Assembly (NCBI GenBank): GCA_018402765.1
Contig: JAGYIE010000002.1
Location: 558,001-622,000, forward strand
Length of the DNA stretch: 64,000 nucleotides
Direction: 5' to 3'
Source: Vicingaceae bacterium
Lineage (GTDB): Bacteria > Bacteroidota > Bacteroidia > Flavobacteriales_E > Vicingaceae
In this document: one piece after another, positions 47,588 to 60,400 of the stretch
Layout of the letters: each line of letters starts with the position of its first letter
How positions within the stretch are numbered: position 1 is the stretch's first letter
The notes under the pieces: generated by a model
What the model saw: the letters and a program-made list of their open reading frames with translations, nothing else
Told to the model about the DNA's origin: nothing
Databases searched by the model: none
Made by a program: the position numbers and the translations under genes

Positions 47588-48151
47588 TTATTTACCATTA
47601 AAATCAGACATTACACGTTGAGTCGCTGCAGTGGTGAATGCTAATACAAATTTTCCTGTCTGCTCTAATCGTTCAGGTAAGGATAATTCTTGATCTTTTG
47701 TCCACTCTCCAAGCACATATTCGACTTGTTGACCTCTACCAAAATCATTTCCTACGCCAAATCTCAATCTACAATAGTTTTGTGTACCTAAAACTTCAGC
47801 AATACTTTTTAGACCGTTATGTCCTCCATCACTGCCTTTTGGTTTTAGACGTAATACACCAAAATCTAATGCAATATCATCCGTTATGATTAAGACTTTG
47901 TCTAACGGAATTTTCTCTTGTTGCATCCAGTAGTTAACAGCTTTTCCACTTAGGTTCATATAGGTAGATGGTTTCAAAAGAATCAACGTTCTTCCTTTGT
48001 GTTTAATTTCGGCACCATCACCTAAACGACTTGTAACAAAAGAAGCACTGGACGCACTTGCTAGTGCATCCAATGCTTTGAATCCAATGTTGTGACGCGT
48101 ATTTTCATACGCTGACCCAATATTTCCTAAACCTACAATGAGGTATTTCAT
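47588..48151 (-). CDS. pth: Peptidyl-tRNA hydrolase
   Basis: Pth frees tRNA from stalled peptidyl-tRNA. The 187-residue protein shows GLGNIG, the catalytic His in NTRHNIGF, KPSTYMNLSG and GSDGGHNGLKSI. It ends a prs-rplY-pth cluster, a linkage kept in many bacteria. Confidence 0.95.
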   Translation of the reverse strand: MKYLIVGLGNIGSAYENTRHNIGFKALDALASASSASFVTSRLGDGAEIKHKGRTLILLKPSTYMNLSGKAVNYWMQQEKIPLDKVLIITDDIALDFGVLRLKPKGSDGGHNGLKSIAEVLGTQNYCRLRFGVGNDFGRGQQVEYVLGEWTKDQELSLPERLEQTGKFVLAFTTAATQRVMSDFNGK

Positions 48152-48167
48152 TGCAAGAAGATTAGTA

Positions 48168-48785
48168 TTATTCAGCAGCTGCTTCAGCCGGAGCTTCAGC
48201 GCCTTCTTCTTCCTCTTCTTCGTCGTCAGTCATAACTGCAACTCTAGAAGTCTTAACTGCTACTACTACTGCGTTTGGAGTATCTAAAAGTTCAACACCC
48301 TCTAAGTTGATGTCTTGAACTTTAATAGACTGACCAATTTTCAGTTTAGTAATGTCTACCTCAACTACATCAGGCATGTTAGCAGGAAGTGCTTTAAGAA
48401 CTAATTTTCTTAATTTATCACTTCTCTTACCACCATTTTTAATACCGATAGAGTTACCTACAACTCTAACTGGAATACCCATAGTCATTAATTTATCTTC
48501 GAAAACTTCGTAGAAATCAATGTGGATAGGCTTGTCAGAAACAGGATGAAACTGAACGTCTCTAATTACTGCTTTAACTTTTTTACCTTCTATGTTTAGT
48601 TCAACTATGTGAACTTCAGGAGTGTTGATTAATTTTCCGAAAGCGATTTCATTGACAGCAATATTGGTGTTGTTTTCTCCACCATAAAGAATACCAGGAA
48701 CTGATCCTTCTTTTCTTATTGAGTTCAATGCGCTTTTCTTTCTTACGCTGTCTCTTACAGAAGCTTCTAACGCTACAGATTTCAT
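48168..48785 (-). CDS. rplY: 50S ribosomal protein bL25, Ctc type
   Basis: The 205-residue long form (Ctc) binds 5S rRNA. The N-terminal L25 domain (R..VPGILYGG) and the TL5-type C-terminal beta domain (VEVDITKLKIGQSIKV) are clear, followed by a very acidic Glu/Ala tail (about 185-205) of low complexity. It lies 36 bases after prs and 16 before pth. Confidence 0.93.
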   Translation of the reverse strand: MKSVALEASVRDSVRKKSALNSIRKEGSVPGILYGGENNTNIAVNEIAFGKLINTPEVHIVELNIEGKKVKAVIRDVQFHPVSDKPIHIDFYEVFEDKLMTMGIPVRVVGNSIGIKNGGKRSDKLRKLVLKALPANMPDVVEVDITKLKIGQSIKVQDINLEGVELLDTPNAVVVAVKTSRVAVMTDDEEEEEEGAEAPAEAAAE

Positions 48786-48821
48786 TTTTCTATTATTTAC
48801 TAAAAACGTTTATACTACTTT

Positions 48822-49754
48822 TTAAAAAATAAAGTATCCACTTATTGATTCATAGTTGTGAACCTTATAGATCACTTTTGCGAATAAATCAGCTACCGTC
48901 AATACTTTTATCTTTTTACTTTCATTCTTGAGCGGAATAGTGTCGGTGACGATTAATTCCGTAAGCCTTGAATTTTCTATTCTATTATATGCTTCCCCTG
49001 ATAAGATGGCATGCGTGCAAAAAGCCCTTACACTATTTGCGCCTTTTTCCATCATGATATCAGCTGCTTTTGTTAATGTTCCTGCAGTATCAATCATGTC
49101 ATCGACCAATAATACATCTTTACCTTCAACATCTCCAATTAAAAACATCTGTTCGATTTTGTTAGCTTCTTTTCGTTGCTTGTAACAAACAACTACTTCG
49201 GTTTTTAGATGCTTTGCGTAGGCATAAGCTCTCTTAGAACCGCCCATATCTGGCGATGCCATAATAAGATTTGGAAGATTTAATTCTTTAATGAAAGGAA
49301 TTGAAATTGCCGAAGCAAATAAGTGATCTACAGGCACCTCAAAGAATCCTTGTATTTGGTCTGCGTGTAAATCCATTGTCATTACTCTGGTTACACCTGC
49401 TGCTGTAAGCATATTCGCTACTAACTTCGAACCAATTGGTACTCTGGGTGAATCTTTTCTATCCTGACGGGCAAATCCGAAATATGGAATAACTGCAACA
49501 ATTCTTCTTGCTGAAGCTCTTTTTGCTGCATCAACCATCAATAATAACTCAAATAAGTTATCAGTCGGAGGCACAGTGCTTTGAATAATAAAAACATCAG
49601 CCCCTCTCACAGATTCCTCTAATGAAGGCTGAAACTCTCCATCGCTAAAAGTGCTTATGGATGCTTTACCTAAATCAACTCCATAGCTCTTAGCTATTTT
49701 GGTAGCTAAGTCTTTGGTAGCGGCTCCTGAAAAGATTTTTACTTTTGATGACAT
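48822..49754 (-). CDS. prs: Ribose-phosphate pyrophosphokinase
   Basis: The 310-residue enzyme makes PRPP from ribose 5-phosphate and ATP for purine, pyrimidine, His and Trp synthesis. Signatures include FSDGEFQP, YFGFARQDRK, DLHADQIQGFF and the PRPP loop VDDMIDTAGTL. A promoter with TTG-N20-TAAATTTG lies 38 bases upstream. Confidence 0.95.
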   Translation of the reverse strand: MSSKVKIFSGAATKDLATKIAKSYGVDLGKASISTFSDGEFQPSLEESVRGADVFIIQSTVPPTDNLFELLLMVDAAKRASARRIVAVIPYFGFARQDRKDSPRVPIGSKLVANMLTAAGVTRVMTMDLHADQIQGFFEVPVDHLFASAISIPFIKELNLPNLIMASPDMGGSKRAYAYAKHLKTEVVVCYKQRKEANKIEQMFLIGDVEGKDVLLVDDMIDTAGTLTKAADIMMEKGANSVRAFCTHAILSGEAYNRIENSRLTELIVTDTIPLKNESKKIKVLTVADLFAKVIYKVHNYESISGYFIF

Positions 49755-49791
49755 CGTATTATTCCTGCTTTTGTGCTCATTAAAGGGGGTG

Positions 49792-49822
49792 CAAATTTAT
49801 TAAATTAATTAAAGCATCACAA
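49792..49822 (-). promoter_or_regulatory. Promoter of prs-rplY-pth
   Basis: On the minus strand TTG (49820-49822), 20-base spacer, TAAATTTG (49792-49799). Same spacing as the sdh promoter. Confidence 0.7.
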
Positions 49823-49919
49823 AAAATTCCCATTTGTTTATAAACTTTTTTTCAAAAAGGTTTCTCCGAGTCAAAAGTATTGAATAATTTCGCAGCCTGT
49901 TTGAGTGCAAACTCATCAT

Positions 49920-50001
49920 GCCCGGATGGCGGAATTGGTAGACGCGCTGGTCTCAAACACCTGTGCCTTCGGGCGTGCCGGTTCGACTCCGGCTCCGGGT
50001 A
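49920..50001 (+). tRNA. tRNA-Leu (CAA)
   Basis: An 82-nt class II tRNA: acceptor GCCCGGA/TCCGGGT, long variable arm TGCCTTCGGGCGT, T-arm GCCGGTTCGACTCCGGC, discriminator A, CCA not encoded. The anticodon loop CTCAAAC gives CAA. The anticodon stem CTGGT/ACCTG has a U-U mismatch at the second pair (28-42). A -7-like TAATTTCG lies at 49885-49892. It marks the left edge of the accessory region to 55.5 kb. Confidence 0.92.
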
Positions 50002-50004
50002 CAT

Positions 50005-50036
50005 AAAGCTTAGCTGTTCTCACAGCTAAGCTTTTT
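50005..50036 (+). terminator. Terminator after tRNA-Leu
   Basis: Perfect 13-base arms AAAGCTTAGCTGT and ACAGCTAAGCTTT with loop TCTC, followed by T. Confidence 0.85.
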
Positions 50037-50257
50037 AATTTTCGTCTTGTTTAAATTCAGTACCTTATATATAGCCATTTGTAGTTCGATTTTTCAATAT
50101 CAATTCTCTTTAAAACACACGAGCAAATAATAATCTACTGATAATTAACTATTTGTGCTGGTTCGACACTACTTTCAGGTTGAAGGATAGTGAGTTAGTC
50201 GTAAGTGGCTAATAGTTAACTTCTTGAGATATATTCGTCTATTAGAATTTTTTAAAT

Positions 50258-52520
50258 TTAAGCCACATTTTTATTGATTTTATTTAAAAGCGTAACATCT
50301 TTATTCCAATTGGACAAATGAATTTCATAACTTTTTTGGGTTTTAATGATTCTTAAAATATGCGGAGAGCCATTTCTAATCGTTTCTGTTTTTAAATCTA
50401 CTTTTTCGTTTAATATGGCGTTTTCCATTCGTGTACGATCTGATTGAGGTTTTTTGAAATCAAATATTTCCTCAACAGCGGAATCCATGAAGTTTTTCAA
50501 TATACTCCACATGGCTTTATCTTTTGGTTTCTCTGGGATTGATCGCTTCCAATCACCTGGATACTGTGGTTTGCTGTTTACACGTTTTTGGAGGTATGTC
50601 TGGCAAAAATGCAAGAATTTATCCTTGAGTATGGAAGGATTTTTATGTTCTAATAAATGAGGAGTAAAAATATCGTGGATGTATTCCCATTTTAACGCTT
50701 TAACGATTGCATTATAAATTCTTTCCACCCATTGGTTTTTATCCGATTCAATTTGGTCATTTTCAATGAATAATTCGATAGCATTTAAAGAATCAATTTC
50801 TGTTTCTATCTTCATTAAATTGGCAAGCGTAGCAGAAGGTAAAGCAGGATTTTTCAATTTTTCGAAATAATCAGGCAACATCTTAATTTGTTCAAGTGCT
50901 AAATGATTCGTTTTTGAATTCATTTTCATGGAACAAATCATTTCCGACAATTTTTCTATTGTTTTTTGTTTCATTTCTTGAGTAAACTTCACGAATAATT
51001 CTCTGCAAGTGTTTTCTGGTAAAAATTCCAGTATTTTTTGCCAGCAATCAGTATCAATACGAACTAATAACAACTGCAATTGATGGAGATTAATATGCAG
51101 CAACAATGTGGCGTTCTTTTGTTGAATCAGCCAATCTATAATCGCATTGTAATTGGCTTTATTTCCTAATCTACTGTCAGAAATAGTATTTGAAATAAGA
51201 TGATTAATGCAATCAATTTCATCCTTGGAGGCTGTGCCTGTTAGATTAAAATAATTGATCCATTCCAGGATTGTTTCTATTGACTGATTCGGTAAAAGTT
51301 GGGCATTTTGTTCTGGTGTCCAAATCGCTACAGCTCCATAATGATACCAATGCATAACATCCGGCCCATAGTTCCCCATATATCCGGTTGACTCTTTAAT
51401 AATTGGTTTATCGTCTTTGAGTTGAAAGGACGTTATGAGGTCGGTTTCTTCAAAATCCAATCGGTCTAACAGGGGTAAATCACTTTCTAACCAATATTCA
51501 ATGGTAAGCTTTCATCATGTACTTCCCCCATCTCAGTGCAGTCATCCTCGTTTGAATTATATCGATCATATCCCCAATTATCGTATTCAGGCGAACCTTC
51601 TAAAAATGAAGTCACCAAACACATTTTTGCGTAACATCCCATTTTTTGTGCCGCACTCAGAAGAATTTGAGCCTTATATCGATCATTCAATTTTAAGTTT
51701 TCATAAGAGAAATTCTCTGGCGTATATTGATGTCCTAAAAGAATAATATGCGGCTGATTGACAGTGTGTTCTGTAAAAATATCGACCAGTTCATGTACCT
51801 GCTTATGAAACGATTGAATTTCTATTTTTACTTCGGTTGATTTTTGAATAAGATTATACGCTAAACAAATTCTATGACCCGAAGTAAGTGGTTTTACTTC
51901 GTGATCGCAATCCGTATAAAATGCAGCAAACTGAATACTATAGTCGTTCATTCCGCTAGAAAAGTCAGCAACAACTTCTTCCCCACCAAAACTTACCACA
52001 AGCTCTCCTCCTGTAAATTTTGAAGGCAGGTTAACGATCAACGAACCAAACATTCCTTTCTCTTTTTCTGTGTCTTTGTGCGGTAAAAAGAAGTCTCCTT
52101 CTTCATATATGAGTAACTTATATAAGTTGGCTTCAATAATATAGTTTTCTAAGCCTAAATCGTGCTTTATACTGCTAATGATATTATTAAGAAGCGTGTC
52201 CCATTTTGGGTTATTCAAACTAATTCGATCCGCATCTATTTCCCAAGCACTTCTCACTTTGTCATCAAGAATGGTTGCCCTCCCTTTCCCAAAAGGAGCT
52301 TTATGAGCTGTTTAATTAAATCTTTCGCTTGAAGTTCTGATAATGGAAAAGAAACTTCATTAACTTTATCAATCATCAATCCAGGTAAAACAAAATCAGT
52401 GGATTTAATACTTGTGAATTTGCCAGTCCCTTTCACATGTTGTAAACACTTAAGTATATCGGTTTGAAGTGGAGTCATAAGAAATAATTTATTTTTAACA
52501 TATTGATCAATAAAAGCCAA
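50258..52520 (-). pseudogene. 2OG-Fe(II) oxygenase gene broken by two frameshifts
   Basis: Three consecutive minus-strand frames (52254-52520, 51487-52257, 50258-51460) together read as one protein of about 750 residues. The middle piece holds a prolyl-4-hydroxylase-like 2-oxoglutarate/Fe(II) domain: His and Asp ligands in FLPHKDTEKEKG, distal His in DCDHEVKPL, and the 2OG-binding Arg in SGHRICL. Reading past the ends shows the breaks. Near 52305-52310 the frame slips so that APFGKGRATILDDK continues into RSAWEID; near 51508-51514 one base is missing from an A-run, after which TIEYWLESDLPLLDRL leads into DFEETDL. Each fits a single-base deletion. The true start is probably the MTPLQTDIL Met, since the first codons come from the neighbouring repeat. 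Confidence 0.75.
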
Positions 52521-52554
52521 AATAGTAATAAAATATCTGTTTTGGCTTTTATTA
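52509..52554. repeat. 46-bp palindromic repeat, left copy (ATPase 3' end)
   Basis: AATAAAAGCCAAA (52509-52521), a 19-base centre containing TAGTAA, and TTTGGCTTTTATTA (52541-52554). The arms are perfect inverted repeats. Its last three bases are the TAA stop of the ATPase gene, and its other arm overlaps the first codons of the oxygenase frame. Confidence 0.85.
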
Positions 52555-53970
52555 ACACAAGAATAGATCTTTTATAGTTAGACTGTTCTGAATATGCTGT
52601 TTGCTGTATTCATTTTCATTTAAGCCATAGGTAGAAATAAAAGTAATGAACACGCTTTTTCTTGTTTTGGTTGACTCGGTAAAGAGATTGAGCTTATTTA
52701 TGAGTTCTTCCGAATATTTTTTGTCCAGTGTAAATGGGGCATTGTAAAATTTGATTTCACATAAATTGATTACATTATCATCGCGATCGATTAATAAATC
52801 AATTTGCGCTCCATTATCTTTGTTTTTTTCAATCCAGTTGCCACTTGTAGAGTTAATTCCGGCTATTTTTAAACCTTCTTTAATTTGTTCAATGTGTTTA
52901 ATGCATATTGTTTCAAAAGTATATCCTGCCCAGGATTTGAAAGAAGGATCTTTTTGAAGTTTGTTCCATATTCCATTTTTTGAAGGTTTACTTTTTTCTA
53001 TGTATTTGATGTAAAAACTAGAATATTCATCCGTTAGTCGGTACAAAGCGTTTTTGTTTCCTTGATAAGGCGTATAATGTTCGATAAAACCCGATTCTTC
53101 CAATTCATTTAGCGTACGTGTGATGTTACCACCCGAAGGTAACTTACTTTTCTTTAGAAGTTCCGTACGAGTTAATCCTTTTCGGATTCCTGCCAGTGTT
53201 CTTATGATTGTTTCATGATTATCAATCTGGTCAAAAAGAGAAGCAAAAACATTGTTGAATTCATGTCTTAGAAAACCATCTTTTTCAAAACATAATCTAT
53301 CAATTGCCTGAACTGCGCTTTCCCCAGAATTGATCTTCTGAAGATAGTGAGGTATACCTCCCATTGCCATATAGAGTTGTAAAATATCATATTGGGTGAG
53401 CTTGACATGATTGGTTTTAAGCAATTCCGATGTTTGAGCTAAATTAAAGGGGTTGACTCTGATTTTATCCGTTAATCGATTATGCAAACCTCCTTTGTCT
53501 CTGATTATTTTGTTTATCATATAGGCAGCAGCAGAGCCACAGATTACCACAACAAGATCATTTCTTTTTGTAGCGTAACTGTTCCAAAAATTATCAAAAG
53601 CTTTAAGGAAACTGGATTTATTATTATCCAGCCATGGAAATTCATCTATAAAAAGTACTTTCTTTTTGTCTTGTGTTAGTGTATCACAATAATCTTTTAA
53701 TTGTTGAAAAGCCTCTATCCAGCTTGTGGGTGTTTTTAATTTTTTCTTTGTGTAATTGTATAGAGTCAGCTTAAACAGTTTGAGATGTTCTTTTGCCGAT
53801 GCTTTATACATTCCTACCAATTCAAACCGAATATACTTTTCGTATGTTTTTCTGATCAAAAAAGTTTTACCCACTCTTCGTCTTCCGTAAACAACGATTA
53901 GTTCTGACTGATGACTTTTTAAAGCGTTTTCAAGAATTTTTTTCTCTTTTTCCCTTCCGACTAGTTTCAT
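52552..53970 (-). CDS. AAA ATPase with C-terminal DUF234 nuclease-like domain
   Basis: The 472-residue protein belongs to the predicted archaeal-type AAA ATPases (COG1672-like). Walker A is GRRRVGKT (29-36), Walker B VLFIDEFPWL near 110, sensor VVVICGSAAAYM near 150. A winged-helix region (TRTELLKKS, GGNITRTLNELEESGFI) follows, then a C-terminal DUF234-type domain with a PD-(D/E)XK-like core (GAQIDLLIDR, LCEIKFYNAP). The family's role is unknown; many copies are accessory and of archaeal affinity. It is flanked on both sides by a 46-bp palindromic repeat that likely also overlaps its promoter. Confidence 0.82.
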   Translation of the reverse strand: MKLVGREKEKKILENALKSHQSELIVVYGRRRVGKTFLIRKTYEKYIRFELVGMYKASAKEHLKLFKLTLYNYTKKKLKTPTSWIEAFQQLKDYCDTLTQDKKKVLFIDEFPWLDNNKSSFLKAFDNFWNSYATKRNDLVVVICGSAAAYMINKIIRDKGGLHNRLTDKIRVNPFNLAQTSELLKTNHVKLTQYDILQLYMAMGGIPHYLQKINSGESAVQAIDRLCFEKDGFLRHEFNNVFASLFDQIDNHETIIRTLAGIRKGLTRTELLKKSKLPSGGNITRTLNELEESGFIEHYTPYQGNKNALYRLTDEYSSFYIKYIEKSKPSKNGIWNKLQKDPSFKSWAGYTFETICIKHIEQIKEGLKIAGINSTSGNWIEKNKDNGAQIDLLIDRDDNVINLCEIKFYNAPFTLDKKYSEELINKLNLFTESTKTRKSVFITFISTYGLNENEYSKQHIQNSLTIKDLFLC

Positions 53971-53982
53971 TTATATTATATT

Positions 53983-54028
53983 AATAAAAGCCAAATGTAG
54001 TAAAAAAAATATAATTTGGCTTTTATTA
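53983..54028. repeat. 46-bp palindromic repeat, right copy (ATPase 5' end)
   Basis: AATAAAAGCCAAA (53983-53995), a 19-base centre containing TAGTAA, TTTGGCTTTTATTA (54015-54028). Same length, orientation and layout as 52509-52554; the centres differ at several bases while the arms are identical. Confidence 0.85.
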
Positions 54029-54160
54029 GCCTTGTTTTTGTAGTGAGTATTAATAATACTATCTTCATTAAAGAGATACCCCAATATATTTTGAGTGCCC
54101 TATTATTAGCTCGCAATCCTGCATAATAAAGTTCGATATTTGTCGGGTTCCTTGTACATT

Positions 54161-54187
54161 AAATCACCTTTAGAAATTAGGTGATTT
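54161..54187. terminator. Hairpin downstream of unknown gene
   Basis: AAATCACCT and AGGTGATTT pair around a nine-base loop, 35 bases past the end of the 54222-55037 gene; A/T-rich on both sides. Confidence 0.6.
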
Positions 54188-54221
54188 TCTGGTTTCTTTT
54201 TTATGATAAAACGTAATCTTC

Positions 54222-55037
54222 TTAGTAATTTTCAATGAAAAATGTATCAAACCTTGGGTAGTTTAATTTTTGGCTCAAATTGATAGCTTTCATTTTGGAC
54301 GTGTTATCACTATTGACTTTCCAATACAATAGATAATAAAAGAATGATAAAAATGACTTGTAACTTAATCTTAAGCTATCTAAGTTTATATCACTTATTA
54401 GCTCCTTCGTTTTAATTATGTTTCCGTTTTTATAATAGAAAGATGCCTGAAAAATTTGATAAACACACAAGTAATTCACCCAGTACTCATCAATTAATTT
54501 CAAAAACTTAGAAAATTCACGATTGATGTCATTAAAATGATAAAAATTCGAAGTAATTATACTCGCCACCATTATTTCATAAAAAAAGGCGGGTGAAAAG
54601 TGAACTTTACAGCTCATTATACTTTCTATTGAGGAGTTATGCTGATACAATGGAAGTGAGAATAACCGTCCTTTCAATACCGGATGGATCATTGTGTCGT
54701 TGATATCCATATCAATATGACCTAAATCTTCTCTTTTATTGAGATAATCTTGCAAAACCTTCAAAGCCCTTTTAAAGTAAAGTTGAGACGGATTTGCTAA
54801 ATGCCTTTCTTTTATAAATTGACCGTAAAATCCATTTAAACTTGAATAATCAACAAAGCTCTCAAATATTATTTCATTTATAAATTGAACTTTGAATAGT
54901 TTTTTAAGTTGATGATTAGGGAACCTTGTAGAGCGAAAAATAATGCCAATAGAGTTTCCAACATATAATTTTTCTGCAAAAGCCAATTCTTTCGGTTCTA
55001 GCTCCAACTGATTAAATACCGCGATTAAAAGTAACAC
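54222..55037 (-). CDS. Unrecognised protein, possibly 5'-truncated
   Basis: The 271-residue product starts at a GTG (55037) with no ATG available; the frame stays open 24 codons further upstream to a TAG. I recognise no family. It is rich in Phe, Tyr, Ile and Leu, probably all-helical, with no signal peptide or clear membrane segment. Its start abuts the broken TRIC gene, so it may itself be a fragment brought in by the rearrangement that truncated that gene. Confidence 0.45.
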   Translation of the reverse strand: MLLLIAVFNQLELEPKELAFAEKLYVGNSIGIIFRSTRFPNHQLKKLFKVQFINEIIFESFVDYSSLNGFYGQFIKERHLANPSQLYFKRALKVLQDYLNKREDLGHIDMDINDTMIHPVLKGRLFSLPLYQHNSSIESIMSCKVHFSPAFFYEIMVASIITSNFYHFNDINREFSKFLKLIDEYWVNYLCVYQIFQASFYYKNGNIIKTKELISDINLDSLRLSYKSFLSFFYYLLYWKVNSDNTSKMKAINLSQKLNYPRFDTFFIENY

Positions 55038-55130
55038 ATCATTACTTGCTAAGAAAAATCTAGCTGTATCGATTATATGTAAGCTCCCCCAAAACTAGTA
55101 CGGTTTAAAAATAGAAAAATAATAACTTAA

Positions 55131-55493
55131 AAAGCAAATACTCGAATTGCGAAAAACCCTCTTTTTTTTGATACTGTAGGTATTGGAGTCTTTACTATAT
55201 TGGGTTTGCAAAAAGCGTTAATTTTAGATTTAAGTCCAATAGCCGCTGTTTTAATGGGTACTTTTTCTGCTGTTCTAGTTGGAGTGATGCGTGAAACCCT
55301 AGTGAATGATATACCGCTAATTTTTAGAAACGAAATTTACGCAACTGCTTGTATTATTGGTGCTAGTGTCTTTCTTATTTTACAAGAAGTTGGCCTTATT
55401 TTTGAATTAAATGCAGGAATTACTATTTCTATAATCATTATAATCAGGCTACTTTCAGTAAAGTATAAGGTCGGTTTGCCTAAGATTAAATAG
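55131..55493 (+). pseudogene. C-terminal half of a TRIC/YicG-family channel
   Basis: The frame is open from 55131 (TAA at 55128) to TAG at 55491-55493 and encodes FFDTVGIGVFTILGLQKAL, then SPIAAVLMGTFSAVLVG, and MRETLVNDIPLIFRNEIYA, the second repeat of the UPF0126/TRIC (YicG-like) family of small cation or glycine channels. Family members have about 200 residues and seven membrane segments; the first half is missing and nothing upstream supplies it. It ends two bases before the convergent dehydrogenase stop. Confidence 0.75.
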
Positions 55494-55495
55494 GG

Positions 55496-56851
55496 TCATT
55501 TTATGTAAACAGTCTTTTTATTAACAAACTCCATAATTCCATCAGCAGAAAGTTCCCTGCCATAACCCGACAGTTTTGTTCCTCCAAAGGGCAGTCTTGG
55601 ATCAGACCTAACCATATCGTTTATAAAAACTGCTCCATCTTCTGATGCCGAGATATAAGATTTTATTCTATCCGGATTTTCAGAGAATATTGACAAGCCT
55701 AAACCAAATTTACTGCTATTAGCTACTTCGATTGCTTCTTGCTCCGTCTTTACTTTAATTATAGATGCAATAGGACCGAAGAGTTCTTCAGTGTAAGCCC
55801 TCATCTGTTCAGTGACTCCTTCTATAACCGTAGGTTCAAAATGCGCTTTAACTCTTTTTCCTCCGATCAATAATTTTGCACCTTTGCTTAAGGCGTCATT
55901 TAATTGCGCTTCTAATTCCTCAGCTAAGTCTTCTCTCGCCATAGGACCTATTTCCGTATTTTCATCCATTGGGTCTCCAACTTTGTATTCTTGAATGAAC
56001 GCTAAAAAATAGGTTATAAACTCTTCGTAAATAGATTCTAATACAATAAAGCGTTTGCCGGCTATGCAACTTTGCCCTGTGTTTTGAAATCTTGCCCATG
56101 CGCCGACTTTTGCAGCATTTTCTATATCAGCATCCTCAAAAATCACAAAAGCATTACTTCCCCCTAATTCCAATACCGTTTTTTTAATTTCCGCTCCTGC
56201 TTTTGATGCGACAGCTTTTCCAGCTTTTTCACTTCCTGTTAATGTAACGGCTTTTATTTGGTCATTAGAAATTATATTACCTATTTGTTCGCTGTTGGCA
56301 ATTATTGTCTGAAATACTCCCTTAGGCACACCAGCGTCTTCTATTATTTCCTGTAGTAGAAGTGCTGATTTAGATACATTAGATGCGTGCTTTAATAGAG
56401 CAACATTGCCAGCCATTAATGTAGGGGCTAAAAAACGAAAAAGCTGCCAAAATGGATAGTTCCAAGGCATTATAGCCAAAATGCATCCTATAGGGTCGTA
56501 TTGTACATAACTATTCGAAGCATCTGTCTTAATCGTTTTACTTGCTAGAAATTGCGCTGCATTGTTTGCATAATATTCGCAGACCCAAGCACACTTTTCT
56601 ACTTCTGCTACTGACTGAGTAATTGGTTTTCCAACTTCTTCCGTTATTACTTTTCCGTAGGATTTAGCATTTGCTTTTAAGTTTTCTGCTACGTTCAATA
56701 AGTGGGTCTTTCTCTCTGAAAATGTACAATTTTTCCAAGTTTTGTAAGTCTCAGCCGCCACGTCAATACTGTCTTCTATTTGTTGATTACTGAATTGTTC
56801 TACTTCAAATATTACTTCTTGATTATATGGGTTGATGCTTTGTACTTTCAT
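55496..56851 (-). CDS. Succinate-semialdehyde dehydrogenase-like aldehyde dehydrogenase
   Basis: The 451-residue NAD(P)-dependent aldehyde dehydrogenase has the catalytic Glu in LELGGSNAFVIF, catalytic Cys in FQNTGQSCIAGKR, the NAD-binding TGSEKAGKAV, and an oxyanion Asn in MPWNYPFWQ. The short N-terminus and these blocks match the Sad/GabD-like succinate-semialdehyde dehydrogenases. It follows the response-regulator gene after 15 bases and is probably co-transcribed. Confidence 0.85.
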   Translation of the reverse strand: MKVQSINPYNQEVIFEVEQFSNQQIEDSIDVAAETYKTWKNCTFSERKTHLLNVAENLKANAKSYGKVITEEVGKPITQSVAEVEKCAWVCEYYANNAAQFLASKTIKTDASNSYVQYDPIGCILAIMPWNYPFWQLFRFLAPTLMAGNVALLKHASNVSKSALLLQEIIEDAGVPKGVFQTIIANSEQIGNIISNDQIKAVTLTGSEKAGKAVASKAGAEIKKTVLELGGSNAFVIFEDADIENAAKVGAWARFQNTGQSCIAGKRFIVLESIYEEFITYFLAFIQEYKVGDPMDENTEIGPMAREDLAEELEAQLNDALSKGAKLLIGGKRVKAHFEPTVIEGVTEQMRAYTEELFGPIASIIKVKTEQEAIEVANSSKFGLGLSIFSENPDRIKSYISASEDGAVFINDMVRSDPRLPFGGTKLSGYGRELSADGIMEFVNKKTVYIK

Positions 56852-56866
56852 AAAAATAAATCGGGT

Positions 56867-57310
56867 TTATTTGTTGTAAATAGCAGCTCTATTGCTCCAA
56901 TATTCTTTTATACTTTTAATTACCGCTGTCAGCTCACCAAAGTGCGTTGGCTTTGTAAAAAAAGTATTTCCTCCGAGTTGATAGGATTTAATAATATCTC
57001 TCTCAGAATTGGATGTTGTTAAAAATAAAACTGGAATGTGCTGTAATTGACTATTTTTCTTGATCTCAATAATGGTTTCCCATCCATTTTTTTTTGGCAT
57101 ATTTAGATCTAAAACAATCATAGTAGGCTCCTGAGGTGGGTGGCGATGAAGATGATTTAATAGCTCTTCTCCATTTTTAAAATATAAATGACCTCCTATC
57201 CAATCATTTTCTTCCAAGGCATGTTGAATCAATAATTGATCATCTAAATCATCATCTGCGATAAGCAAACGAATGGATTTAGCTAAAAACGTTGACTTGT
57301 TTTCGGTCAT
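56867..57310 (-). CDS. Single-domain response regulator (Rcp1-like)
   Basis: The 147-residue protein is a stand-alone receiver domain: acidic pocket DDDLDD near residue 18, phosphoacceptor Asp in MIVLDLNMPKKNG, Thr/Ser switch in LFLTTSNS, Lys in FFTKPTHF. No output domain. The frame extends to a TTG at 57331, but the perfect -7 element lies at 57329-57336, so translation must start at the ATG at 57310. Rcp1-like proteins partner with phytochrome-type or hybrid kinases; none is adjacent. Confidence 0.88.
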   Translation of the reverse strand: MTENKSTFLAKSIRLLIADDDLDDQLLIQHALEENDWIGGHLYFKNGEELLNHLHRHPPQEPTMIVLDLNMPKKNGWETIIEIKKNSQLQHIPVLFLTTSNSERDIIKSYQLGGNTFFTKPTHFGELTAVIKSIKEYWSNRAAIYNK

Positions 57311-57328
57311 TGAGTAATGAGTTTGTAC

Positions 57329-57336
57329 CAAAGTTA
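57329..57336 (-). promoter_or_regulatory. -7 element of the response regulator-dehydrogenase operon
   Basis: TAACTTTG on the minus strand, perfect TAnnTTTG, 18 bases before the ATG at 57310. Confidence 0.55.
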
Positions 57337-57414
57337 AGTTATTGCATTATAAAATCATTGCATTCACTTATAAATGGAACTATTTTTGATAAAGACAGCA
57401 TAAATTTTAATTCC

Positions 57415-60400
57415 ATGAAGAAGAACACGATTTTCACTCTCCTCACTTTATTTTCTATTATAAGTTTACTTGCTTGGAACTATTCAACACCCAATAAAAA
57501 GGAATTAATTGTTTTTAAAACTTCTGATAACTACAAAAAGGAATGGTATCTAGTGGATTCGTTGGTTAAAATAGGACAAGAAAAATCTGCTGTTATAAAA
57601 GTTGAACAAATACTAAACAAAGCTGAAGCTGCTCAAAATTTCAATCAAGTTTATAAAGCGACTTTATATATTGCTCGGTTAAGTATTTCTTTTCAAGAAG
57701 AAAGTCTAGAAAGGACAATTATAGAATTAGAGCAGAAAACGATGCAAAACGACTACCCCCTTTCTGCTATTTTTCATTCTGTATTGGGAGATATTTATCA
57801 GAATTATTACCATCAAAATAGCTGGAAATTTAATCAACGAACCGAAATTCAGGGTTCTCCAACGGATGATATCAACACATGGGATTTAAAAACGATTATC
57901 AAACGTATTCAATTTCATTATGATGCATCCTTAGTTGAGGAAGAAAGGCTAAAACGAACTCCTATCAATTACTTTGAGCCTATTTTATCTAAACAAACGA
58001 CTAATTATAACGAAGAGAAGGAGATACAGCGATTTTTGTATGATTTGTTGGTCAAAAGAGCAATTGATTTTTATTCCTCAGGACAAGCTAGTCTAGCAGA
58101 TCCAATTCATGTATTCTCAATAGAGGATCCTCTTGTATTTTCATCTAAGCAGGATTTTGTGAAAGCTGTATTCCAAACCACTGACACGTTTTCAAATGAA
58201 TGGAAAGCACTGAATTTATACCAAGAATGGACGGCCTTTTTATTGGAGGAAGATAATTTAACAGCCCTTACTGATGCAACAATAAAACGGCTTCAATTTG
58301 CAAAAACTTATTTTCAAGGAGAAGGTAAGGAAGAGATGTACATAAGGGCGATAGAGTTGTTGCATGAGCAACTCGAAGGAAATCCATCATCAGCAAGAAC
58401 TGCTTTTGAGATAGCTAAATTTTACAAAGAAACTTACGATTCTGATACGGCTACTATCCATCAAAATAAATTGAAAGAAGCAGCTACACTTTGTGAAGAG
58501 CACATCAAGCTTTATTCTAAAAGTTACGGAGCGATACAGTGTCAAGAAATTTTTAATCAATTAAATAGGCCATATCATCAACTGCAAATGGAATCGGCGG
58601 TATTACCAAATCAACCAATTTTATTTCAAACAATTTGGAGAAATATAACTGATATAAATTATCGAATCGTTGTATCTCCTTTTGGAAGAATTACGGAGAA
58701 TTTGAGCTATGATCAGCAAAAAGGAAAGTTATTGTCCTCCAAATTGGTAAATAGCTGGACAACCAGCTTTAGTGGAGGAGAAGATTTAAGACAGCATACT
58801 ACAGAGTTTTCTCAAGAAGGATTACCAACAGGTCATTACTACTTGCTTTCATCCTCCAAAGCTGATTTTTCACAAATGGAATCTATCTCTTTTGTAGAGT
58901 TTTGGGTTTCTGAAATAAGCTTTGCACAGGAGAACAATACCAAAGGAGGATTAGACATTTATGTACTAAATCGTAAAAATGGTCATCCATTAAAGGGAGT
59001 GGATTTAACCGTTTATCAGAATAGAAATTGGAGCTATTTTCAAGGTGAAACAGGCACTTTTAAAACGGATGAAAATGGATATGTAGCAATTAATCAGACC
59101 AATGATCGCAATAGTATGGTTGTTTTTAAGAATGACACAGATAGCTTATACTCTGAACCTTTTTATATTTACAATAACAATCGAACTGTGGAAAATGACT
59201 GGACGACCCAAGTGAATTTTTTCACCGATAGGGCAATTTATCGTCCTGGACAAACAGTCCATTTTAAAGGTATTGTTATTGAGACCAAAGCGAAAGAAGT
59301 AAAACTAAATACGGGTCTTAAAAGCACAGTTGAGTTGCTGGATGCTAATTATAAAAAAGTGGCTTCCATAGAAGTAAAAGCAAATCAATACGGCTCATTT
59401 AGTGGTTCTTTTCAATTACCCGTAGGGGGATTAACAGGCTATTATCGATTAAAAACTGATTTTGGTCAACACGGCTTTTCAGTTGAGGAGTATAAACGTC
59501 CTCAGTTTGAGGTGAAGTTTGATCGGGTAAAAGGGAGTTTTAAATTAAATGATGATATACTAACTAAAGGAAGAGCTATTGCCTATTCAGGAGCAAATCT
59601 ATCCGAAGCAGAAGTAAGTTATCGAGTAATTCGAAGAGAAATAGTTCCTTATTATTATGGTTATGGATGGAGACGATATCCACCATTACAAAAAAATGAA
59701 GCAGAAATAGCAAATGGAAAAGTAAGCACCAATGCAGCAGGAGAGTTTGAAGTAAAATTTGTAGCGAAAGCGCCGAGCAATAGCACTTCTACATTCACCT
59801 ATGAAGTGGTTGCTGATGTAACTGATATTAATGGAGAAACGCAAAGTGCTTCTACTTCGTTAAGTGTTAGCAAACAACCTTTTCAGTTACAAATAGAATT
59901 ACAAGATGAAATTCAGCGAGAGGAGTTTAATTCCATTCAATTTGAAACAAAGAACTTCTCAAATGAACCAGTAGAAGCAAGCATTAGCTATTCACTTGAG
60001 CGGCTTAAGCCACAAAATCGAGTGTATAAAGAGCGTTACTGGGAATTGCCAGAGCAACATCAACTCTCAGAAACAGAATTTAGAAAGAAATTTCCAAATT
60101 TAGCCTATTCAGAAAATGAATTGAATCCCGCTTTATTTGAAGTGGAGAGAAAGGTGCTTGAAGCAAAGGTAAAAGCGAATGAGTTGATAAAGTTCTCTGA
60201 ATTTTTGAGCAGTGGAAATTATAAGTTGAATATTTTGGCGACAGATGGGAATGGCGATGAAATAAAGCAAACACGCTATTTTACAATTTTTAGTTTAAAG
60301 GATAAATGTCCAGTTGTTGCCTCAGTTTTTTGGACTAAACAGTTAAAGTCTAAAGTAGAAGTTGGAGAAAAGGCGCAGGTAATAGTTGGCTCAAGAGCTA

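Follow-up and report, generated by a model that had tools for sequence, protein, structure and literature searches.

PDC-S27 is a common candidate defence gene of the PADLOC collection and is treated as a candidate in those parts of the literature naming it that were consulted here, where it has no tested function. In the same parts of PMC12988326, S27 denotes an ATPase fused to a member of the PD-(D/E)XK group, with counts of 3503 in Archaea and 4562 in Bacteria in that data set, and validation is described as pending for most such candidate defence families. Palindromic sites or unit mobility are not mentioned for PDC-S27 in the consulted parts of PMC12988326 and PMC13356809, and searches of open-access literature yielded no description of palindromes or of a mobile unit in this ATPase family. 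Here we describe a PDC-S27-type gene of Vicingaceae bacterium (assembly GCA_018402765.1), located in positions 558,001 to 622,000 of contig JAGYIE010000002.1 (forward strand; this stretch of 64,000 nucleotides is called the window), which lies between two palindromes with common arms. A palindrome of fixed geometry accompanies the gene across its family, overlaps a promoter box in an oriented manner, and occurs together with the gene in unrelated contexts. On balance, we think that this is a horizontally mobile single-gene unit with its own palindromic recognition sites, whose protein would bind its own palindrome, cover the promoter and repress itself.

The predicted ATPase-nuclease gene and its two palindromes

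The two palindromes of the window are in direct orientation, 1474 bp apart from start to start and 76% identical over 49 nucleotides; the arms AATAAAAGCCAAA are common to both copies and the centres are unlike. The left copy overlaps the stop codon of the ATPase gene and the right copy leaves a gap of 11 bases to its ATG, which bears out the initial annotation in that one ATPase gene is bracketed by two direct palindromes with differing centres; the length of 46 bp and the 19-base centre given there were only approximate, because arms and centre measure 14+17+14 and 15+17+15 (45-47 bp, centre 17). The pattern AATAAAAGCCAAA-N8-28-TTTGGCTTTTATT has exactly two sites in the 3,098,843-base genome, namely these palindromes, and its reversed control has none.

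The encoded protein matches the PADLOC profile PDLC04984 (PDC-S27) over residues 2-470 (E 6e-193, 640 bits), and the fusion of an ATPase domain to a PD-(D/E)XK domain that characterizes PDC-S27 is seen in Pfam, the predicted structure and the invariant residues. Its earlier description as a DUF234 ATPase with a PD-(D/E)XK-like domain holds on both counts. Pfam identifies ATPase_2 together with related AAA models, and DUF234 just over the cut-off (23.3 vs 22.5 bits). The AlphaFold model (mean pLDDT 92.8) comprises an AAA+ domain, a winged helix and a C-terminal domain. Residues 1-325 are closest in fold to the archaeal ATPases PABY2304 (2QEN, Z 20.7) and SSO1545 (2FNA, Z 20.2), followed by NLR and CED-4 type proteins (Z 12.8-16.7) and ORC (Z 13-14.5). 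The C-terminal domain folded alone (pLDDT 89.6) matches mainly PD-(D/E)XK nucleases, which we take to be NucS/EndoMS (Z 9.1), AddAB (8.1), FokI (7.9), Can2 (7.8) and McrC (7.1), and its best Foldseek match is 1Y88, a protein of unknown function; the modelled nuclease domain is apparently intact. E353, D391, E405 and K407, like the Walker A and B residues, are invariant in a 61-row alignment. No transposase or recombinase domain appeared in the Pfam scan of this gene, the only one of the unit, which returned ATPase/AAA models and DUF234 only. The protein has no match in the PDB by sequence or in NCBIfam, weak ATPase-type matches only in PHROGs (best E 0.003), and no homologue in an IMG/VR scan. 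The basis for a putative defence role of the unit is the family match with the candidate PDC-S27. Coordinates are collected in Table 1.

Table 1. Positions in the window of the palindrome-ATPase unit, its protein regions and surrounding features
Feature	Position	Strand	Basis
ATPase gene, 472 aa (PDC-S27 / ATPase_2 + DUF234)	52552..53970	-	Sequence, Pfam, PADLOC
Upstream (right) palindrome, 15+17+15, with promoter -7 box match	53982..54028	-	Sequence
TACATTTG, -7 box match to TAnnTTTG in upstream palindrome	53992..53999	-	Consensus match; family-wide asymmetry
Downstream (left) palindrome, 14+17+14, overlapping ATPase stop codon	52509..52553	-	Sequence
Walker A region, residues 29-36; G29, R30-R32, G34, K35, T36 invariant	53863..53886	-	Alignment
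Walker B acidic pair D109-E110, invariant	53641..53646	-	Alignment
Winged-helix region, residues ~249-325	52996..53226	-	AlphaFold model, structure comparison
PD-(D/E)XK-like nuclease domain, residues 334-472; E353, D391, E405, K407 invariant	52555..52971	-	Alignment, structure
Insertion of ~5.1 kb beside tRNA-Leu, holding the palindrome-ATPase unit	50003..55128		Absent from two same-genus genomes
Outer repeat, second repeat type, 31 bp	54116..54146	+	Four copies in genome

Geometry, promoter overlap and distribution of the palindrome

The best 80 of 159 relatives found in GTDB genomes were kept, nearly all of them from groups labelled Bacteroidota, and the compared loci carry L-numbers (L004, L099 and so on). 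Dyads were scored as paired positions of 19 within 150 bp upstream of the gene, with a cut-off of 14/19. Scores of at least 14/19 are reached upstream of 65 of the 80 homologues; among controls, a single one of 160 block shuffles scores as high, and likewise a single one of 320 windows taken from these loci at a distance of over 600 bp. Downstream, such dyads are found at 10 of 79 homologues; by eye, the arms of the upstream copy recur there in 6 of 79 (L006-L010 and L074), besides the window and L004, so that only a minority of the loci have matching arms on both sides of the gene. The downstream palindrome of L010 appears to belong to the next ATPase gene, and at least in L036 and L037 the downstream dyads are, by eye, tight terminator-like hairpins. 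As separate observations, what looks by eye like the start of a second ATPase gene, preceded by a palindrome of its own, follows closely downstream in L010, and L072 has two ATPase homologues in tandem.

The arms vary widely across loci (for example TATAATTCGCCAAAA, TATATTTGGAGAAATCTAT and ATAACTTGCTTTATCTAT) yet pair inside each locus. Among 74 non-redundant of 99 loci, mean arm similarity is 0.83 within a locus vs 0.58 between loci, the former being high in part because the loci were selected for a dyad of at least 13/19; the pairing of such different arms would agree with selection on the palindrome. The spacing is strict: a GCC...GGC around the dyad occurs in 30 of 68 loci that have a dyad and always spans 31-33 bp (27-35 searched), and an outer TxAT...ATxA in 27 of 68, always spanning 48-50 bp (44-54 searched). 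At a lenient cut-off of 13/19 over ~260 bp, the 82 loci counted have one site in 33 cases, two in 37, three in 5, four in 2 and none in 5; intervals between tandem sites are 52-56 bp in 34 of 53, and the central 14 bp of the sites average 81% A+T.

The -7 promoter consensus of Bacteroidota is TAnnTTTG. It occurs in the gene-facing half of the palindrome at 30 of 77 loci and in the opposite half at 5 of 77 (p=1.7e-6), and in the window the upstream palindrome carries TACATTTG, read from 53999 to 53992. In Wolbachia phage WO the centre of the palindrome is TATAAT, between ACCGCGG and CCGCGGT arms (by eye). The gene-facing -7 box and the TATAAT centre therefore argue for an operator-promoter. An earlier suggestion of a paired operator and terminator is in this respect half sustained: promoter overlap, orientation and geometry speak for an operator at the upstream copy, and a terminator is disfavoured.

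Palindromes common away from ATPase genes had been named in the initial annotation as an observation that would count against it. In 14 genomes chosen for carrying the gene with similar arms, 13 of which have a site of the CGCCAAA arm pattern, 22 of 28 such sites lie within ~300 bp of an ATPase homologue; of the other six sites, most differ in their centres and one falls at the end of a contig. A stricter pattern was found in 17 of 395 Bacteroidota genomes and its reversed control in nine, so many of these 17 matches are near chance. Six of the 17 fetched loci hold all or part of an ATPase homologue, one of them being the own genome; three (~43% identity) have upstream dyads of 13/19, 14/19 and, in the third, below the cut-off, and downstream shorter CGCCAAAA/TTTTGGCG arms, which could alternatively be a terminator. 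An explanation by dispersed REP-like palindromes was considered and rejected, given the two sites in the own genome and the location of the 22 sites.

The unit in unrelated genomic contexts

Long DNA matches of at least 78% identity link 28 pairs of loci. Flanking frames were compared for 18 of them as well as for two pairs that include the window gene, over no more than 2.5 kb on each side and over less at some loci. Ten of these 18 (DNA identity 79-98%; L024/L029, L042/L046, L046/L047, L051/L056, L056/L080, L012/L045, L012/L018, L004/L016, L063/L084 and L047/L059) have no neighbouring reading frame in common outside the homology block, nor have the two pairs with the window gene. Six of the 18 are syntenic; L006 and L007 have mfd (named by eye) in common on one side and a different gene on the other, and L021 and L025 only weakly similar genes in different order. 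The homology block of the ten non-syntenic pairs takes in the palindromes: its upstream edge is 58-209 bp from the gene, and its other edge lies between -12 and +139 bp of the stop codon, within 12 bp of it in five. L047 and L059 are two loci of a single genome; their flanks differ, and their match extends over 1783 bp at 98% identity. At the left edge of their block, ~209 bp upstream of the gene, another repeat is seen with a terminator-like hairpin preceding it, and a similar repeat sequence lies to the right of the block (by eye). L016 comes from a metagenome-assembled genome labelled Bifidobacterium breve, in which the homologue has 52% identity and the DNA is 79% identical to L004; the bin is probably mislabelled or mixed.

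Homologues are also found on seven plasmid and five phage records. In one record of Wolbachia phage WO, a 42% ATPase homologue with two upstream palindromes is located between gpC and the head gene that comes next. Matches to gpC exist in 14 WO records, and the gpC junction was inspected in nine others that lack the gene, some from the same Wolbachia strain and thus not independent. One or more palindromes with this type of arm, in part imperfect, stand at the junction in eight of the nine; the ninth is without any. Three long stretches of WO (30, 50 and 50 kb) contain the pattern at this junction and nowhere else. A blastn search with the 101-base WO palindrome region matched its own record only; the WO sites thus resemble one another in the motif of their arms and in their location, without extended DNA similarity. 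The palindrome-only sites would be explained if the gene had been lost and its site had stayed behind, and equally if a site had captured the gene. The idea of a minimal mobile cassette, put forward in the initial annotation, is thus upheld as far as a gene-sized unit in unrelated contexts and the palindrome-only sites of WO are concerned; self-catalysed movement would be a further, hypothetical step.

In the own genome the unit stands among apparently disrupted genes near a tRNA, as had been noted before. A 2OG-Fe(II) oxygenase gene is split over two frames (51487-52257 and 52254-52520, with a Pfam match for the first only), a glycine transporter gene (55200-55493) appears to lack its 5' part by eye comparison with a same-genus genome, and tRNA-Leu is at 49920-50002. 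In two same-genus genomes, one of them only 69% complete, prs and tRNA-Leu run straight into the glycine transporter or aldehyde dehydrogenase region. Both lack the whole insertion at 50003-55128, and it follows that the unit came in, or with, an insertion next to the tRNA gene; for the same reason the exact ends of the unit are unreadable at this locus, and these two genomes offer no clean empty site. No clean empty site of L032 was found in 40 genomes of one genus either, the one good match keeping a single flank (66%), and no target duplication was found at the sites compared, that is, in the two same-genus genomes and the L032 comparison.

ATPase homologues at E 1e-60 or better are present in 4 of 46 genomes of the family Vicingaceae, the own genome included, which has two paralogues of the window ATPase (54% and 48% identity). 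The first (L004) has palindromes on both sides with arms unlike those of the window, and the second (L005) is not clearly bracketed. Each of the two ATPase islands in this genome has a tRNA gene at it or close by. The paralogue island at 4500-16000 of L099, near tRNA-His, contains an HNH-like protein together with fragments of duplicated genes, possible remnants of a polymorphic toxin and immunity region (function by eye).

The 31-bp outer repeat has, with up to three mismatches allowed, four copies in this genome: that of the window and those at 2185, 3981 and 15246 of L099. Each is at most ~220 bp from one of the three PDC-S27 genes and is followed by a different terminator-like hairpin (by eye); the repeat might mark the border of a cassette or the junction of a toxin module. 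It occurs in 2 of the 46 family genomes, and the other genome, which has no ATPase match at E 1e-60, carries its copy at ~1495-1530 of L102 between two ArsR-type-looking regulator genes. ARAGORN finds no tRNA at the repeat, and there is no plasmid match for it; in these repeats, which separate genes, no attC core was seen by eye, no search aimed at attC or IntI having been made. Over 48000-58000 only the tRNA reaches an Rfam gathering threshold, and near the L099 repeat and its hairpin all Rfam matches are below the gathering score (best E 0.0004, 31 of 63 bits).

Proposed autoregulation, alternatives and comparison with known systems

It is proposed that the ATPase binds the palindrome as a symmetric complex through its winged helix and, when bound, covers the promoter inside the palindrome and thereby represses its own gene. 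ATP or a trigger would then change the state of the ATPase and free the nuclease. Since each unit has arms of its own sequence, cross-regulation of paralogues within a cell would be avoided. The palindrome at the 3' edge, where present, may mark the far end of the unit and be a place where units recombine or insert beside one another.

Several findings weigh against this proposal. Fifteen of the 80 loci are below the dyad cut-off, and nine have no dyad even at 13/19, several of the nine showing an imperfect palindrome by eye. L005, the third ATPase of the genome, has an upstream AT-rich dyad only, which lacks the usual core, and downstream a tight hairpin. Among ten plasmid and phage homologues, some distant ones have their palindrome 49-141 bp before the start codon, and in several of these a promoter-like box is seen by eye in the intervening stretch, so the palindrome is not always over the promoter; others of the ten are without a clear palindrome, and the Haloferax homologue has none near the gene. 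In a co-variation analysis of arms and protein, no single column passes the permutation threshold (0.293 vs 0.324), and the winged-helix window has a partial r of 0.20 but 0.21 is also reached at residues 161-175 and 331-345; the winged helix is not singled out, and the binding surface is therefore a guess from the fold. Moreover, the window copy arrived in, or with, the larger insertion (~5.1 kb).

The most serious alternative is an ordinary autoregulated gene whose palindrome is an operator only and which spreads by plasmids, phages and islands like other accessory genes. The overlap and orientation of the promoter box, the plasmid and phage homologues and the tRNA genes at the ATPase islands all suit it, and we regard it as possible, though less likely than our proposal; it has no need of a 3' copy, and in the ten non-syntenic pairs homology ends near the gene, larger blocks not being seen. 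Another alternative is a self-mobilising element: the ATPase-nuclease would excise or copy the unit at the palindromes, as its ends, and insert it at or beside another palindrome by homing or transposition. Palindromes serving as ends and targets would account for the 3' copies and the palindrome-only sites of WO, and the near-identical L047 and L059 units in different flanks, the homology blocks that include the palindromes and in five pairs stop so close to the stop codon, the two-sided matching palindromes of the window copy, L004, L006-L009 and L074, and the invariant nuclease residues are all compatible with it. Against this, a matching 3' copy is present in only six of 79 homologues (by eye), neither target duplication nor clean empty site was found at the compared loci, and the L047/L059 block exceeds palindromes and gene and has another repeat at its edge; we consider it doubtful. 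Similarly speculative is the broader notion of a new class of single-gene mobile element, in which an AAA+/winged-helix/PD-(D/E)XK protein would recognise a private palindrome, control its own promoter and home, excise and stack there, its recognition diversifying so that co-resident units ignore each other.

A replication or partition-like site, at which tandem palindromes with AT-rich centres are bound by an Orc/Cdc6-like AAA+ winged-helix protein, is very improbable: fold neighbours include DNA-bound archaeal Orc1/Cdc6, the sites lie beside the gene and their centres are rich in A+T, but the window unit is a single gene of chromosomal appearance, no replicon behaviour is seen, and the orientation bias of the -7 box is a promoter feature. 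RNA hairpins or terminators at both transcript ends are equally disfavoured, for although both window copies fold well as RNA (-14.6 to -19.4 kcal/mol, z -4.8 to -6.9) and some relatives, L036 and L037 for instance, have tight terminator-like hairpins as 3' dyads, upstream copies would be only partly transcribed if the -7 box is used, the 31-33 bp spacing is strict, and a terminator scan (loops of 3-8 only) finds neither window copy.

For the proposed autoregulated mobile unit, a palindrome travelling with each gene would be a direct way into the recognition specificity of the protein; with a 50 bp probe, its DNA binding, autoregulation and mobility would become approachable, and matched pairs of protein and site would form a natural set for the evolution of winged-helix specificity.

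Among the closest known systems is PDC-S27 itself, with a full-length profile match and the same fusion. PABY2304 and SSO1545 resemble the protein in fold over residues 1-325 but at 18% identity, and the chains matched, of 350 and 352 residues, leave the nuclease domain uncovered; Orc1/Cdc6 initiators score well under these two and overlap the lower CED-4/NLR matches. DDE, HUH, Ser and Tyr elements likewise give near-identical copies at unrelated places of one genome, as in L047/L059 (the paralogues of the window gene being much more distant), but the gene of this unit has no transposase or recombinase domain in Pfam. In REP elements with RAYT transposases a gene is flanked by its own palindromes, a general logic that the window unit shares, whereas it is without an HUH transposase domain (Pfam) and its palindromes are not genome-dispersed. 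IS200/IS605 elements also have palindromes near both ends; here Pfam shows no HUH transposase, the spacing is rigid and duplex-like, and most relatives have upstream copies only. In autoregulated toxin-antitoxin or restriction-controller operators, a palindrome lies over the gene's own promoter as proposed here, the difference being that the present unit is a single gene without a partner, with an operator of ~50 bp and arms that vary from unit to unit.

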